64,000 nt of DNA from Candidatus Binataceae bacterium. GTDB lineage: Bacteria; Desulfobacterota; Binatia; Binatales; Binataceae. The translations under genes were made by a program, and so were the position numbers. Below the pieces are notes generated by a model, which ran no database searches, was not told where the DNA came from, and saw nothing but the letters and a program-made list of their open reading frames with translations. Where the stretch lies: NCBI GenBank assembly GCA_036495685.1, contig DASXMJ010000051.1, positions 1 through 64,000 of the forward strand. Reading direction: 5' to 3'. Each line of letters begins with the position of its first letter. Within the stretch, counting starts at the first letter, position 1. Below, one piece after another: positions 13,552 through 20,394 of the stretch.

Positions 13552-14400
13552 TTAACTAACCGCCGGCGCCGTTATGGTTCGGTGCGCGGCGCGCATCGCG
13601 TCTTTGAGCGAACCGACCAGCCCGCCAGCCGCGGCGACCGCATCGCCAGACGCCATCTGTTGCTCGATCAGGGTCGAGATGGCGCTGCCGACCACCACGG
13701 CATCCGCGAAGTTCGCGACCTTTGCCGCTTGTTGCGGCGTGGAAATTCCAAAGCCTACGCCGATAGGCAGGTCGCTCACCGTGCGCAGCTCCCGCACTTT
13801 GCTTTCCACGTCGCTGCCCACTTCGCTGCGCACCCCGGTCACTCCAGTCACCGAGACATAATACAAGAACCCGCTCGCCGACCGCGCGATTCGCCGGCTG
13901 CGCTCCAGCGGCGTGGTCGGTGCGAGCAGATAGATGAGGTCGAGGCCGTTGGCCCGCGCCGGCTTGAGCAACTCCGCACTCTCCTCGGGCGGCAGATCGA
14001 TCACCAGAATCGCATCTACGCCGGCGATGGCTGCGTCACGGCAGAACCGCTCGCATCCGTAGTGTAAATAAGGATTGAAGTAACCGAACAGGATGAGCGG
14101 GATCTGCGTCGCCTGCCTGAGCTCGGAGACCAGGGAGAGAATTGCGGGTAGCGAGGCGCCCGCTTCAAGCCCGCGGGCGATGGCGCGTTGATTCGCCGGT
14201 CCATCCGCCATCGGATCCGAGAACGGCACCCCAAGCTCTATCAAGTCAGCGCCGCGCGCCTCAAGTTCGAGGACCAGCCGGCGTGTGGTCGCGATATCCG
14301 GATCTCCCGCGACGATAAACGGAATAAGCGCCGCTTCGTTGCGAGCGCGCAACTCGAGGAACTTGCGCGCGATCCTTCCGCCGTGTGGCATCCTACGCAC
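13552..14400 (-). CDS. trpA: Tryptophan synthase alpha subunit
   Basis: TrpA cleaves indole-3-glycerol phosphate to indole and glyceraldehyde 3-phosphate and channels indole to TrpB. The 282-residue product carries [14 protein letters not shown], with the catalytic Glu and Asp, and [13 protein letters not shown] near the phosphate site. Its start overlaps the end of trpB by 8 bases, which points to translational coupling of the two subunits of the complex. It is the last trp gene of the operon; accD follows 16 bases later. Confidence 0.97.
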
Positions 14401-15598
14401 CCTCCCGCAGCGTCACGCCGCACGCGCGCGCGACCGTGTTCATGTCCTTGTCGCCTCGTCCCGAGAGGTTGACGATGATGATCCGTTCTTTGGGCAGGGT
14501 TGGAGCGAGCCTGGCGGCATGCGCGATCGCGTGCGAACTCTCCAGCGCGGGGATGATGCCCTCGGTCCCGCATAAGAGCTGAAAGGCCGCCACCGCTTCG
14601 GCGTCGGTTACCACCGCGTATTCGGCGCGCCCGCTCTCCTTGAGATATGCGAGTTCGGGTCCGACGCCGGGATAATCGAGGCCGGCGGCGACCGAGTGAG
14701 TCTCACGAATCTGGCCCAGTTCATCCTGCAAGAGCAGCGTCCGGTTTCCGTGCAACACGCCCGGGTGGCCCGCCGTAAGGGTCGCCGCGTGCTGCCAGCC
14801 GTTGAGCCCGAGGCCTCCAGCCTCTACGAAATACATGCGCACGTCACGGTCTTGCACGAAGGGGTGCATCAGCCCGATCGCGTTAGACCCGCCGTTAACG
14901 CAGGCGATCAGAACATCGGGCAGCCGTCCTTCCAGCTTGACAATCTGGCGGCGCGTCTCTTTGCCGATCACGGTCTGAAAATCGCGCACGATCATCGGGT
15001 AAGGATGAGGGCCCGCGGCGGAGCCGATCAAGTAGTAGCTATTGCGCACCGACGCGGTCCAGTCGCGCAGTGCCTCGCTCATCGCGTCCTTCAGACTCCT
15101 GCTCCCCGAGTCCACCGGCTGGACCTTGGCGCCGAGCAGCTTCATGCGAAACACGTTGAGCGCCTGCCGCTCGACGTCAATCGCGCCCATGAATACCTCG
15201 CATTGACGCCGGAACAGCGCCGCCATCGTTGCGGCGGCCACTCCGTGCTGTCCTGCTCCGGTTTCGGCGATGATGCGCTCCTTGCCCATCCTGACCGCGA
15301 GCAGCGCCTGGCCCAGCGCGTTGTTCGCCTTGTGTGCACCCGTGTGGCACAGGTCCTCGCGTTTCAGATAAATTTTCGCGCCGCCCAGTTTCGCCGTCAG
15401 GTTGGCGGCGAAGAACAGGGGCGTAGGGCGTCCCACATACTCGCGCGAATATTTTTCAAGCTCGGAACGAAATTTCGGATCGCGCCGCGCCTGCTGGTAG
15501 GCCTGGGCTAGTTCCAGCAGCGCGGGCATCAGCGTTTCGGCCACGTACCGCCCGCCGAATTCGCCGAAGTGTCCGCGGCTATCTGGTTGATTTTGCAT
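14393..15598 (-). CDS. trpB: Tryptophan synthase beta subunit
   Basis: TrpB is the PLP enzyme that joins indole and serine to give tryptophan. With the ATG at 15598 ([18 protein letters not shown]) it has 401 residues, a normal length; the longer frame to 15706 would run deep into trpF. The PLP lysine is Lys90 in [13 protein letters not shown], and the phosphate-binding loop is NGGSNAIG. The gene overlaps the end of trpF by 20 bases and the start of trpA by 8. Confidence 0.97.
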
Positions 15599-16190
15599 TG
15601 GCAACGAAACTCCTGAGCTTGAGATGGTCCTTGATGCCGGGTGTCGACTCCACGCCGCTGGCCGCGTCGACCCCGTATGGGCCAAGAGCGGCAGCCGCGG
15701 CGACATTGGCTGCGTTCAACCCGCCGGAAATGAAGACTCTTGAAAGATCGAGTTGCTTGAGCTCTTCGAGAGGGCGCGCGACTCCGCTGCCACCGTAGAG
15801 CGCGGAATTAAATGTATCCAACAAGACGTAGTCCGCGTGAGTCCGAGAAATTGCGACAAGTGCTTCACCGGTGCGTACCCGCAGCGCGCGAATCACCGGC
15901 AGCGTCCAACCGGACAGCGCGCCTTCTTCTTCGTCGCCATGGAACTGCAGCATGTCGAGACCGAGATCGTGTGCGCAGTCCCCTATCACCGAGCGCGCTT
16001 CGTTGACGAACACACCCACGACCTGGGCTCGATGTCCGATAACCTCGCGAATCGCGCGCGCACCGGCTCGGTCGAGATAGCGAGGACTCGGCCGATGAAA
16101 GTTCAACCCGATCAGATCCGCACCAGCCAGAATGGCGGCCTCGGCATCTTCTATGCAGGTCACGCCGCATATTTTGACCCGCACCGTCAT
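15579..16190 (-). CDS. trpF: Phosphoribosylanthranilate isomerase
   Basis: TrpF carries out the Amadori rearrangement of phosphoribosylanthranilate. The 203-residue TIM barrel begins VKICGVT, with the catalytic Cys, and contains GVFVNEA, LQFHGDE, the catalytic Asp in VLLDTF and the late phosphate-binding segment [10 protein letters not shown]. It overlaps trpC by 4 bases and trpB by 20. TrpF and TrpC are separate proteins here, not fused as in enteric bacteria. Confidence 0.96.
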
Positions 16191-16984
16191 CGCGAGTCTC
16201 TGCCTGGCAGGGAATCCAGCAACGCGGCCAGTTTCGCGCGCGGCTCTCCTCCGCGCAGCAGGCTCTCGCCGATCAAAAACGCTCGAGCACCCGCGCGGTC
16301 AAGTCGCACTATGTCCTCGGGAGCATCGATTCCGCTCTCCGAGATGATCAGTGCGTCGCTCCGCTGCCGCGAGAGCAGCCGTTCGGTGACCGCGATATCG
16401 GTAACGAAGCTATGCAGGTCACGATTGTTGATTCCGACCAGCGTAGCGCCGATCTTTCGGGCGGTCGCGAACTCTGCCTCGTTGTGCACTTCGACTAGCG
16501 CGGCCATCTTGAGCTCACGCGCCATGGCGGCAAGCTCACGCAGCACCGACCCGTCCAGCATAGCCGCAATCAGCAAGATACAGTCGGCACCCGCGGCGCG
16601 CGCCTCGTACACCTGATACGCATCGAACATGAAATCCTTGCGCAGCAGTGGCAGTTCGACCGCCGCGCGCACCGTCTGCAAATCTTCAAGTGTTCCTTTA
16701 AAATGCCTGTCGGTCAGGACCGAGATGCAGGCCGCGCCCGCCGCCGCGTACTCGCGCGCAACCGCGCCGGGGTTGAGCCCTGGGGAAATATCGCCTTTGC
16801 TGGGTGAGGCACGTTTGACTTCGGCGATTATCGCTGGCCGCCGCGCGCGCAGCGCAGCCTCGAAGTCGCGGGCAGCCGGCACGGCGGCTGCGGCGTTGCA
16901 AATCTCCGCAAATGACACGCGGTTTCGCGTGGCCATCAGTTCCTCGCGCTTGGCCGCGAAGATTTGCTCCAGGATAGAACTCAT
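16187..16984 (-). CDS. trpC: Indole-3-glycerol phosphate synthase
   Basis: TrpC closes the indole ring from the TrpF product. The 265-residue TIM barrel shows AEVKRASPSKGDI with the catalytic lysine, LLRKDFMFDAYQVYEARAAG, ALVEVHNEAEF, GINNRDL and SESGI, the complete family signature. It overlaps trpD and trpF by 4 bases each (ATGA), indicating coupled translation through this part of the operon. Confidence 0.97.
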   Translation of the reverse strand: MSSILEQIFAAKREELMATRNRVSFAEICNAAAAVPAARDFEAALRARRPAIIAEVKRASPSKGDISPGLNPGAVAREYAAAGAACISVLTDRHFKGTLEDLQTVRAAVELPLLRKDFMFDAYQVYEARAAGADCILLIAAMLDGSVLRELAAMARELKMAALVEVHNEAEFATARKIGATLVGINNRDLHSFVTDIAVTERLLSRQRSDALIISESGIDAPEDIVRLDRAGARAFLIGESLLRGGEPRAKLAALLDSLPGRDSR

Positions 16985-18009
16985 TGGCCGGTGGCGTAAC
17001 TCGCCTCCGCGAGCCTTTCGATGATCCTGAGCGCGTGGCCTGCTTCGATGAGCTTGCGCGCTTTAACCACCCCGCCGTGCAACGATTGCGCTTTTCCGCC
17101 CACGTAAAGCGCGGCGCCGGCGTTAAGCGCGAGCACATCTTGGGCGGGACCCGGTTCTCCCGCAAGAACTGCGCGCAGAATTCGGGCAGCGTGGGGCGCA
17201 TCGTTGGCCACCAGGGTGTCGCGGGCTACCCTTTTCATGCCGAACTCTTCGGGCGCGATCTCAAATTCCCGAACCGGTTCTGCACCCCGAATCTCCGCAA
17301 CCCGCGTGGCAGAGGACAGTGTAATCTCGTCCATACCATCACTTCCGTTCACCACCAGCGCGTGCGCGACCCCCAGAGCTGCCAGCGCCTCGGCCATCGG
17401 GCGAAATAATTCGGCATCTCCGACTCCCACCACCATGCAACGCGGCGTCGCCGGATTACAGAGCGGCCCAAGCAAATTGAAGATCGTGCGGGTTGCGAGC
17501 GCGCGGCGCAACGGCGCAAGCCGCGCCAGTACCGGATGATAGGCGGGAGCAAAAATGAAACAGAACGCCGCGCGGCGCAGACAGCACGCCAAGCCCGCCG
17601 GGTCGAGGTCGATCTTGACGAAGAACTGTTCCAGCACATCCGCGGCGCCGACGCGGCCGCTTATCGCGCGATTGCCGTGCTTGGCGACCGGGATGCCGGC
17701 GGCGGCGGCGACCAGGGCCGCGCCCGTTGAAATGTTGAAGCTGCCCGAACCATCGCCGCCCGTGCCCACGACGTCGACCAGATGCGTGCCATCGAGGTTG
17801 GTCGCGCGTGCGCGTGCGCGCATCGCGCGGGCTGCGCCTTTGAGCTCCGCCGCAGATTCACCCTTCAGCTTGAGCGCGACCAGAAATCCCGCGATCAGGG
17901 CCTCCGGCGCCTGCTCGTCGAGAATCTCGCCAAACGCGCGCTCGGCCGTGACTACATCAAGCGAACGACGCGCGAGCACATCCTCGAAGGCGGCAGGCAA
18001 GGCGTTCAC
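16981..18009 (-). CDS. trpD: Anthranilate phosphoribosyltransferase
   Basis: TrpD transfers phosphoribose from PRPP to anthranilate. The 342-residue protein has the PRPP motif [14 protein letters not shown], then [10 protein letters not shown] and [11 protein letters not shown]. There is no amidotransferase domain, so it is the stand-alone form. It overlaps trpG by 4 bases upstream and trpC by 4 bases downstream. Confidence 0.97.
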
Positions 18010-18596
18010 GTGGCAATCCGCCGCAGAAAGTTTTCCAGCACACGTTTGCCCTGAGGCGTGCCGATCGATTCCGGATGGAACTGCACGCCCTCGACTCTCA
18101 GGGTCTTATGGCGAAAGCCCATGATCTCGTTCTCTTCCGTGCGCGCGCTGATTTCCAGACAGTCCGGCACCGTATCCCACTCGACCAGCAGCGAATGATA
18201 CCGCATCGCATCGAACGGGCTCGGGATGGATTCAAAGATCGTCTTGCCGTCGTGCACCACCGGCGAGGTCTTGCCATGCATCAGCCGCGATGCACGCACG
18301 ACACGCCCACCGAACGCTTCCCCAATACACTGATGGCCCAGGCAGACACCGAGAATCGGCAGTTCCGCCGAAAGCTCGCGCAGAATCGCCAAGGAAACAC
18401 CGGCCTCCTTTGGCGTGCACGGCCCCGGCGAAATGACAATCGCGTCGGGCGACAGCGCACGTGCGCCCGCTACATCGATGTCATCGTTGCGCTTAACGAC
18501 TACAGCGGCGCCCAGCTCGCCAAGGTACTGAACCAGGTTGTAGGTAAACGAATCATAGTTATCGATCATCAGCAGTTTGGGTTTTAGTTCGCTCAT
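18006..18596 (-). CDS. trpG: Anthranilate synthase glutamine amidotransferase component
   Basis: TrpG supplies ammonia from glutamine to TrpE. The 196-residue class I amidotransferase has the nucleophile in [15 protein letters not shown] and the His-Glu pair in [27 protein letters not shown] is the usual N-terminus. It starts 15 bases after the trpE stop codon. The same fold also serves PabA, and a dual role in folate synthesis is possible because no pabA is visible in the window. Confidence 0.95.
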
Positions 18597-18611: not shown

Positions 18612-20102
18612 TTACTTCTCGAACTCGCGCGCCGCCTGCAGGGCACGAACCACGGCACGCGCCTTGTTCACCGATTCCTCGAATTCGGCACCGGGATCCG
18701 AGTCCGCAACCACCCCGCCGCCCGCCTGGATGTACACGCGGTTGTTTTTGACCAGCAGGGTGCGGAGCGCGATCGCGGTGTCGGTGTTGCCCGTGTAGCT
18801 GAAGTAACCGACCGCGCCCGCATAAATGCCGCGGCGTACGCTCTCAACTTCGTCGATAATCTCCATGGCGCGGATTTTCGGCGCCCCCGACACGGTTCCC
18901 TGCGGGAAGGTGGCACGGAAAGCATCAAACGCATCGCAGTCGTCGCGCAGCCTCCCGACTACATTCGACACGATATGCATCACGTGCGAGTAACGCTCGA
19001 CGACCATGTACTCGGTAACTTTGACCGATCCGATTTCCGAGACGCGGCCCACGTCGTTGCGCCCGAGGTCAACCAGCATCACGTGCTCGGCCTGCTCCTT
19101 CGGATCCGCGAGCAGTTCCCGTTCCATCGCTTTGTCTTGGGCTTCATTCGCTCCGCGTGGTCGTGTCCCGGCGATCGGCCTGAGCGTGATATCGCGGCCC
19201 TCGACCCGCACCATGACCTCCGGCGAGGCGCCAACCAAAGTGTGATCGCCAAGCCGCAGGTAAAACATGTACGGTGACGGGTTGATGGTCCTGAGGCTCC
19301 GGTAGATGTTGAAGGGATGCGCTGTGAGCGGCGACTCAAAGCGCTGCGAAGGAACCACCTGAATAACATCACCGGCGGCGATGTACTCCTTGGCTGCCGT
19401 TACCATCGTCATGTACCCCTCGCGGGTCATGTTCGAAACGATGGTTGAATCGTTCGCGACCGCCGCTGCGCCCTCGAGCCGCGGCGGGACCGCCGGCGCA
19501 CGCAACCGTTGAATCAGCTCGTCGATCTTGGTCTCGGCGCCGCGATACGCCGCGCGCGTCGACGGGAAGTCCTCGACTGGGACGTTCGCGATTACCCTGA
19601 GCGTTTGCCGCACGTTGTCGAACATCAACATGGTCTCTGTGAACATCATGTAGAGGTCCGGCACGCCCAGATCATCCTCGACGGTCTGTGGAATCCGCTC
19701 GAAGCAGCGCACGACGTCGTAGGCGAGAAAGCCCACCGCGCCGCCGAAAAACGGCGGCAGTCCGGGAAGCTCGGGAGCGCGAAAGCGTTTCACCTCCGCA
19801 CCGAGTTCATCGAACGCGTTGCTAATCGAACGAACCTCGATGCCGCGGCCCGGCCGGATAAGGTCCATCCGGTTCCCGCGCGCGCGAATGACCATTGAGG
19901 GTTCCGAGCCCAAAAAGGTGTAGCGGCCCCACTTCTCTCCGCCGCGTACGCTTTCCAGGAGAAACGCGTAGTCGCCTCGCGCGACTTTCAAAAACGCCGA
20001 GACCGGGGTTTCCAGATCAGCAGCAATTTCGCGCGAGACCGGAATCAGGTTGTAACCCTGGCTGCGCAAGTCTTCGAATTCGCGCTCGGTCGGATACAGC
20101 AT
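18612..20102 (-). CDS. trpE: Anthranilate synthase component I
   Basis: TrpE converts chorismate to anthranilate using TrpG-derived ammonia. The ATG at 20102 (MLYPTEREFEDL) gives 496 residues and has GAGGGG 7 bases upstream; the longer frame to 20240 would start in the leader. Recognisable parts are LESVRGGEKWGRYTFLG in the N-terminal feedback-binding half, and IAGTRPRGANEAQD, LGRNDVGRV, VVGRLRDD and FPQGTVSGAPKIRAMEII in the catalytic half. It is the first enzyme gene behind the trp attenuator, so its expression should follow tryptophan supply. Confidence 0.97.
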   Translation of the reverse strand: MLYPTEREFEDLRSQGYNLIPVSREIAADLETPVSAFLKVARGDYAFLLESVRGGEKWGRYTFLGSEPSMVIRARGNRMDLIRPGRGIEVRSISNAFDELGAEVKRFRAPELPGLPPFFGGAVGFLAYDVVRCFERIPQTVEDDLGVPDLYMMFTETMLMFDNVRQTLRVIANVPVEDFPSTRAAYRGAETKIDELIQRLRAPAVPPRLEGAAAVANDSTIVSNMTREGYMTMVTAAKEYIAAGDVIQVVPSQRFESPLTAHPFNIYRSLRTINPSPYMFYLRLGDHTLVGASPEVMVRVEGRDITLRPIAGTRPRGANEAQDKAMERELLADPKEQAEHVMLVDLGRNDVGRVSEIGSVKVTEYMVVERYSHVMHIVSNVVGRLRDDCDAFDAFRATFPQGTVSGAPKIRAMEIIDEVESVRRGIYAGAVGYFSYTGNTDTAIALRTLLVKNNRVYIQAGGGVVADSDPGAEFEESVNKARAVVRALQAAREFEK

Positions 20103-20249
20103 CGTAGTGCCCCTCAACTCCGAAAGGTTTGCCGACCCACTCTCCGACGAGGCGTTCGACTTCTCCGCGGGCGAGGTCGGAAAGAAGGTTTTTTTTCCGG
20201 ACCGGGAATCTTCATGTGCCTGTCGTTCAGCTCCAAGCATTCGGTAACC

Positions 20250-20282
20250 AAAAAAAAGGCCGCAGGTTCTTCGCCTGCGGCC
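20250..20282 (-). terminator. trp attenuator terminator hairpin (segments 3:4)
   Basis: On the minus strand GGCCGCAGG (20282-20274) pairs perfectly with CCTGCGGCC (20266-20258) across a 7-base loop, followed directly by eight T residues (20257-20250). This is a strong intrinsic terminator 147 bases before trpE and downstream of a Trp-rich leader peptide. Confidence 0.88.
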
Positions 20283-20350
20283 GTTTGAACTTGGTTTCGT
20301 GTGTAGACTACAAAACCAGCGCGCAGGCGGGTGCGGCGACGTGCCAGCGC
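20272..20350 (-). promoter_or_regulatory. trp attenuator pairing segments 1, 2 and 3
   Basis: Folded by hand on the minus-strand RNA. Segment 1 (20350-20343, GCGCTGGC, spanning the last two Trp codons) pairs with GCCTGCGC (20328-20321) with one mismatch. Segment 2 (20329-20322, CGCCTGCG) instead pairs perfectly over 8 bp with CGCAGGCG (20279-20272), part of the terminator's 5' arm. Between them 20318-20311 and 20299-20292 form an 8-bp inner stem (one GU). A ribosome stalled at the Trp codons covers segment 1 and favours the antiterminator; one reaching the stop codon would cover segment 2 and leave the terminator to form. Confidence 0.8.
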
Positions 20351-20385
20351 CAAGCCCAAGCCTTCTGGTTCGTGCAGTTCTTCAT
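20308..20385 (-). CDS. trpL: trp operon leader peptide
   Basis: A 25-codon frame (ATG at 20385, TAG at 20310-20308) encodes MKNCTNQKAWAWRWH followed by VAAPACALVL. Trp is at positions 10, 12 and 14, an extraordinary density for a chance peptide. It lies directly ahead of a terminator hairpin and upstream of trpE, as in ribosome-mediated attenuation. There is no convincing Shine-Dalgarno (only AGAG 4 bases before the ATG), and the promoter predicts a start point about 3 bases before the ATG, so it may be translated from a leaderless RNA, as reported for rhizobial trpL. Confidence 0.85.
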   Translation of the reverse strand: MKNCTNQKAWAWRWHVAAPACALVL

Positions 20386-20394
20386 CGGCTCTAC

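Follow-up and report, generated by a model that had tools for sequence, protein, structure and literature searches.

A putative ribosome-mediated attenuator of the trp operon in Candidatus Binataceae and an apparent copy with exchanged sensing codons

Upstream of the trpEGDCFBA cluster in the window (the whole 64-kb stretch of DNA analyzed here) lies an element, directly readable in the sequence at positions 20385-20250 of the minus strand, which very probably regulates the trp operon by ribosome-mediated transcription attenuation. Every sequence feature tested places it among the ribosome-mediated trp attenuators: the mechanism is known and the lineage is new. The 40 aligned examples from the family, with their clear covariation, would extend this type of regulation to an uncultured phylum. 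Two aspects are new besides the content of the initial annotation of this DNA, namely that the leaders are predicted to be leaderless and that one copy has swapped codons.

Leader and alternative hairpins upstream of trpE

The first structural gene proposed to be controlled by the element is trpE (18612-20102, minus strand; TIGR00564, 572.8 bits for a cutoff of 517.7). The rest of the apparent operon (13552-18596, minus strand), read from translations, comprises trpG, whose identity was also checked by profile search, and genes which we take, from knowledge of such sequences, to be trpD, trpC, trpF, trpB, and trpA. The start of trpE was placed at the ATG at 20102, which has a Shine-Dalgarno-like GAGGGG, because relatives align from there. 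The longest trpE ORF starts 46 codons too early, at 20240 (20102-20240, minus strand). As the nudC-like neighbour gene is divergent to the trp cluster, the leader region is intergenic.

The leader ORF, trpL (20385-20308, minus strand), consists of 25 codons (MKNCTNQKAWAWRWHVAAPACALVL), from an ATG at 20385-20383 to a TAG at 20310-20308, and is devoid of Shine-Dalgarno sequence. Its Trp codons occupy positions 10 (20358-20356), 12 (20352-20350), and 14 (20346-20344), spaced as W-A-W-R-W. The intrinsic terminator (20282-20250, minus strand) sits between this leader and trpE. Its arms, GGCCGCAGG (20282-20274) and CCTGCGGCC (20266-20258), form a 9-bp stem with a 7-nt loop (20273-20267), followed by eight T (20257-20250), hence eight U in the RNA. 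Segment 3, CGCAGGCG (20279-20272), is common to the terminator and to a competing antiterminator, in which it forms eight perfect pairs with segment 2, CGCCTGCG (20329-20322). The latter is the 5' arm of the antiterminator and lies inside the leader codons for a conserved ACA. Between both arms, an inner stem-loop (20318-20292) pairs 20318-20311 with 20299-20292 (eight pairs, one of them G-U) and holds the trpL stop codon in its loop. Finally, segment 1, AACCAG (20370-20365; consensus ACCGG), pairs with CTGGTT (20319-20314) to form the 1:2 helix.

The initial annotation had described a 25-codon leader with Trp codons at these three positions, a 9-bp terminator hairpin with eight U, and an 8-bp perfect competing pairing supported by an 8-bp inner stem, all of which direct reading confirmed, the G-U pair of the inner stem included. 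It had also stated that a 1:2 pairing covers the Trp codons: the pairing does exist, but segment 1 is located directly 5' of these codons, which fall, in the predicted fold, inside the domain that the pairing closes. Folding of the region, proposed there as a check, yielded a structure more stable than shuffles (z = -2.75). A leader with at least three Trp in five codons together with a strong terminator did not arise in any of 2000 dinucleotide-shuffled versions of the region, and no second leader and terminator of this kind was detected when both strands of the 64-kb window were scanned.

Conservation in the family and predicted leaderless mRNA

By TrpE, MAGs of Candidatus Binataceae are the closest named relatives (up to 87% identity), in agreement with the earlier view that the lineage (Candidatus Binataceae, Binatota) is outside the groups in which trpL is best described. 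Each of the 41 family genomes has a TrpE-like match, and upstream DNA could be read for 40 trpE loci in 39 of them, two divergent-type loci included. All 40 loci carry an aligned Trp-codon leader and a terminator. Leaders display clustered Trp codons, typically as ...W(R)W...ACAPVL. Spacing among the last Trp codon, segment 2, the stop codon, and the terminator is near-constant across the family: segment 2 begins, in most loci, 13-20 nt after the position at which the last Trp codon before it starts (17 nt in the window), and the stop codon falls at leader nt 72-84. A model of the element, itself derived from these loci, detects it in 39 of the 41 family genomes at E <= 2.6e-13.

Loci L120 and L121 (TrpE 54% and 63% identical to that of the window, respectively) represent a second, divergent type of TrpE, and each has its own Trp leader. 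These loci belong to genomes G021 and G022, and G021 holds both TrpE types.

In the window, a -35 box TTGACA (20423-20418, minus strand) is separated by a 17-nt spacer from a -10-like hexamer GATCAT (20400-20395, minus strand), a weak -10 box whose 3' end is 9 nt upstream of the leader ATG, and the transcript is predicted to start about 0-4 nt before this ATG. A TTGAC box is present at about equal distance in the family: in 39 of the 40 loci it begins 35-44 nt upstream of the start codon of the leader, and in one locus 51 nt upstream, a distribution whose tightness is favoured by the leader starts of L014, L017, and L019 having been shifted to another start codon close by in the same frame prior to counting. 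A Shine-Dalgarno-like 4-mer is absent in 36 of the 40 family leaders. Because of this TTGAC spacing, the usual promoter geometry, and the near lack of Shine-Dalgarno sites, the Binataceae trpL mRNA is predicted to be leaderless or nearly so.

Such a predicted layout matches that of rnTrpL in Sinorhizobium meliloti, an RNA which starts with the trpL ATG and is thus leaderless, and for which, as for the peptide peTrpL, action in trans has been reported (PMC7298713). The leader RNA or peptide of Binataceae might likewise work mainly in trans, with attenuation as its source, and the conserved C-terminus of the peptide, ACAPVL, could be read in this way. However, ACAPVL conservation is accounted for by the pairing of segment 2 and of the inner stem as RNA, and we regard a main role in trans as very unlikely compared with attenuation of the operon.

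Covariation of the competing helices

In the alignment of the 40 family sequences (A1), the terminator helix shows standard pairs in 96.5% of cells and six double-change pairs. The 2:3 helix of the antiterminator is paired in 85.3% of cells and the inner stem in 77.8%; jointly, they are 81.7% paired with 11 double-change pairs, six of which are in the inner stem. When the antiterminator partner was slid by 1-3 columns, pairing fell to 32-44%. The 1:2 helix, which joins ACCGG to CCGGU, is weaker than the others, with 71.7% of cells paired, and has double changes at all six of its pairs. Helix pairing exceeds shuffled values; shuffles ignore relatedness, whereas the slid control retains it. Short or imperfect 2:3 helices occur in a few relatives (L030, L113, L114, and L121). 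The search for Trp codons and alternative hairpins in close relatives, which the initial annotation had suggested, recovered a Trp-codon leader and a terminator at all 40 loci, with compensatory changes in the terminator, antiterminator, and 1:2 helices, and at the sequence level this supports its reading of the element as a ribosome-mediated trp attenuator.

These results bear on another explanation, namely that of a constitutive intrinsic terminator preceded by chance by a Trp-rich ORF. A strong terminator hairpin is by itself common, and the region is intergenic given the divergent nudC-like neighbour. Nevertheless, the 2:3 covariation contradicts this explanation, as do the conservation of the leader and of the alternative helix with compensatory changes in 40 loci, the absence of comparable arrangements among the 2000 shuffles, and the placement of the terminator between the promoter and trpE. 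We therefore give it scarcely any credit and retain attenuation.

No Rfam family matched the element at gathering thresholds, and the five matches obtained at E up to 10 were weak and unrelated, with no trp leader among them. Rfam-based annotation would therefore miss the element, as anticipated when it was first judged to be probably unannotated. TRAP-like RNAs, T-box RNAs, and repressors control trp operons in other bacteria, but the chance that one of these systems alone operates at this site is negligible, as Rfam (T-box included) gives no match and as neither conserved Trp codons in frame nor spacing on the scale of a ribosome has a part in such systems, although a repressor may act besides the attenuator. 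Finally, we found no report of trp attenuation in Binatota or Deltaproteobacteria in the open literature, which is weak evidence as most subscription papers fall outside this scope.

Proposed mechanism

Under the attenuation model, the promoter would start the transcript at the trpL ATG or a few bases from it, and the first ribosome would load onto a leaderless or near-leaderless mRNA. When Trp-tRNA is scarce, this ribosome would stall at codons 10-14, covering segment 1 while segment 2 stays free for pairing with segment 3, the two enclosing the inner stem. The 2:3 pairing would then block the terminator, and RNA polymerase would proceed to trpE. Under an ample supply of Trp, the ribosome would get to the stop codon in the inner loop, covering segment 2 and the inner stem; segment 3 would then pair with segment 4 and transcription would terminate. 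We infer ribosome stalling, coupling, the response to tryptophan, and read-through of the trp leader from the features described above.

Fold simulations were performed with the ribosome at various positions. With the ribosome at W10, W12, or W14, nascent RNA preceding the 3' arm of the terminator forms the 2:3 and inner-stem hairpin (-31.5, -27.4, and -27.4 kcal/mol, respectively). Once the ribosome is placed at the stop codon, the 2:3 hairpin is lost and the complete RNA (-36.7) forms the terminator, this last structure being taken from a run with codon positions 2 nt off. At equilibrium, the terminator remains the preferred structure of the complete RNA when a ribosome sits on the Trp codons (-32.0 versus -27.4 kcal/mol for W14). 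Antitermination must therefore be kinetic, as is generally assumed for ribosome-mediated attenuators.

Distribution beyond the family

A second family of the class, f2, has a Trp-containing leader and a terminator in all 12 trpE loci fetched, 11 of which are found full length by the element model (E from 7.8e-9 to 1e-4); two further f2 loci come from genome G132. In most f2 loci with a clear start codon, the -35 box precedes this codon by 35-37 nt. The predicted leaderless or near-leaderless trp leader mRNA appears to be conserved in two families, Binataceae and f2, which would make it possible to compare how such leaders are translated and coupled to transcription. In the other families sampled from the class, no convincing leader was found among 47 readable loci.

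A phylum-wide search with model R1 returned many generic GC-rich terminators, with partial matches at model positions 59-141 or 106-137, and fetched matches were kept only if Trp or Leu codons were present together with a fitting gene. Trp-rich leaders (WWW, WWWWW) and terminators were read by eye at six loci of the wider phylum. From knowledge of such sequences, we take the genes that follow to be trpE (L228), TrpB-like (L225 and L238), aroF-like (L226), and iorA-like, that is, indolepyruvate oxidoreductase-like (L230 and L235). Full-length weak matches at L221-L224, L263-L265, L269, L270, and L272-L274 were rejected, having no fitting leader. L220 (G001:C47:14477-14614, minus strand) is similar in sequence to the inner stem and terminator, which make up the 3' half of the element, but lacks a sensible leader and downstream gene, and is possibly a decayed copy.

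An Asn-codon copy and Leu leaders

Family genome G040 holds a second full-length element, L219, detected by the element model with E = 1.6e-18 (L219 471-608, that is, G040:C280:1670-1807, plus strand). Its leader, MMLDHDNRNANGNRCRCTRACAPVS, has four Asn codons at the positions of the trpL Trp codons. Promoter spacing, segment 2, and the inner stem are kept, the terminator is perfect, and segments 2 and 3 pair as TGCCTGCG with CGCAGGCG. The gene that follows encodes an aspartate--tRNA(Asn) ligase (NF003483, 458.6 bits for a cutoff of 353). Close homologues of this ligase were detected neither beyond G040 in 145 class genomes nor in 395 phylum genomes, the latter sample being without positive control. 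L219 is a single instance, on a 5.3-kb contig of a MAG, and is apparently an Asn-sensing attenuator. We consider it reasonably likely, on sequence grounds, that the Binataceae trp attenuator is modular, with exchangeable sensing codons, and that L219, in front of an accessory ligase, senses charged tRNA-Asn, which would represent a natural codon swap on a predicted leaderless mRNA.

Leu-rich leader ORFs (LLLSLAL), of which MFRTLLPGLLLSLALTRAHAGCVAERV is an example, are located upstream of leuA at each of the 23 Binataceae loci examined (L275-L304), including that of the window's own genome (L279). A simple scan found a terminator in only some of these loci; in L279, inspection by eye shows a GCCCCGGGCGG...CCGCCCGGGGC hairpin and, after it, a run rich in T. 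Leu-containing leaders before leuA are also present in class families f10 (L236 and L268) and f16 (L271). Because both the Asn-codon copy and the leuA leaders were found, codon-sensing attenuation as a general regulatory mode in this group is suggested.

Comparison with known systems

In the Escherichia coli trp attenuator, ribosomes stalling at Trp codons set the choice among pairings of four segments (1:2, 2:3, and 3:4), and the Binataceae element would follow the same logic. Compared with the E. coli trp leader as represented in Rfam, the window leader is longer, differs in sequence, has an extra inner stem, and lacks a Shine-Dalgarno site, and the element is not a member of that Rfam family by score. 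Outside Proteobacteria and Firmicutes, a parallel for RNA-based regulation of amino-acid genes is provided by the actinobacterial leader attenuators found by comparative genomics (PMC1262725), which belong to a different phylum and have different sequences. In the element as in trpL/rnTrpL of the alphaproteobacterium S. meliloti, a leader with Trp codons is found before trpE along with an antiterminator and a terminator that exclude each other. The S. meliloti RNA starts at the trpL ATG (PMC7298713), and a start at or near this codon is predicted here. By contrast, the S. meliloti leader has 14 amino acids with consecutive Trp codons and precedes trpE(G), while that of the window has 25 codons with spaced W-A-W-R-W, precedes separate trpE and trpG within one trpEGDCFBA cluster, and is associated with an inner stem that carries the stop codon in its loop.
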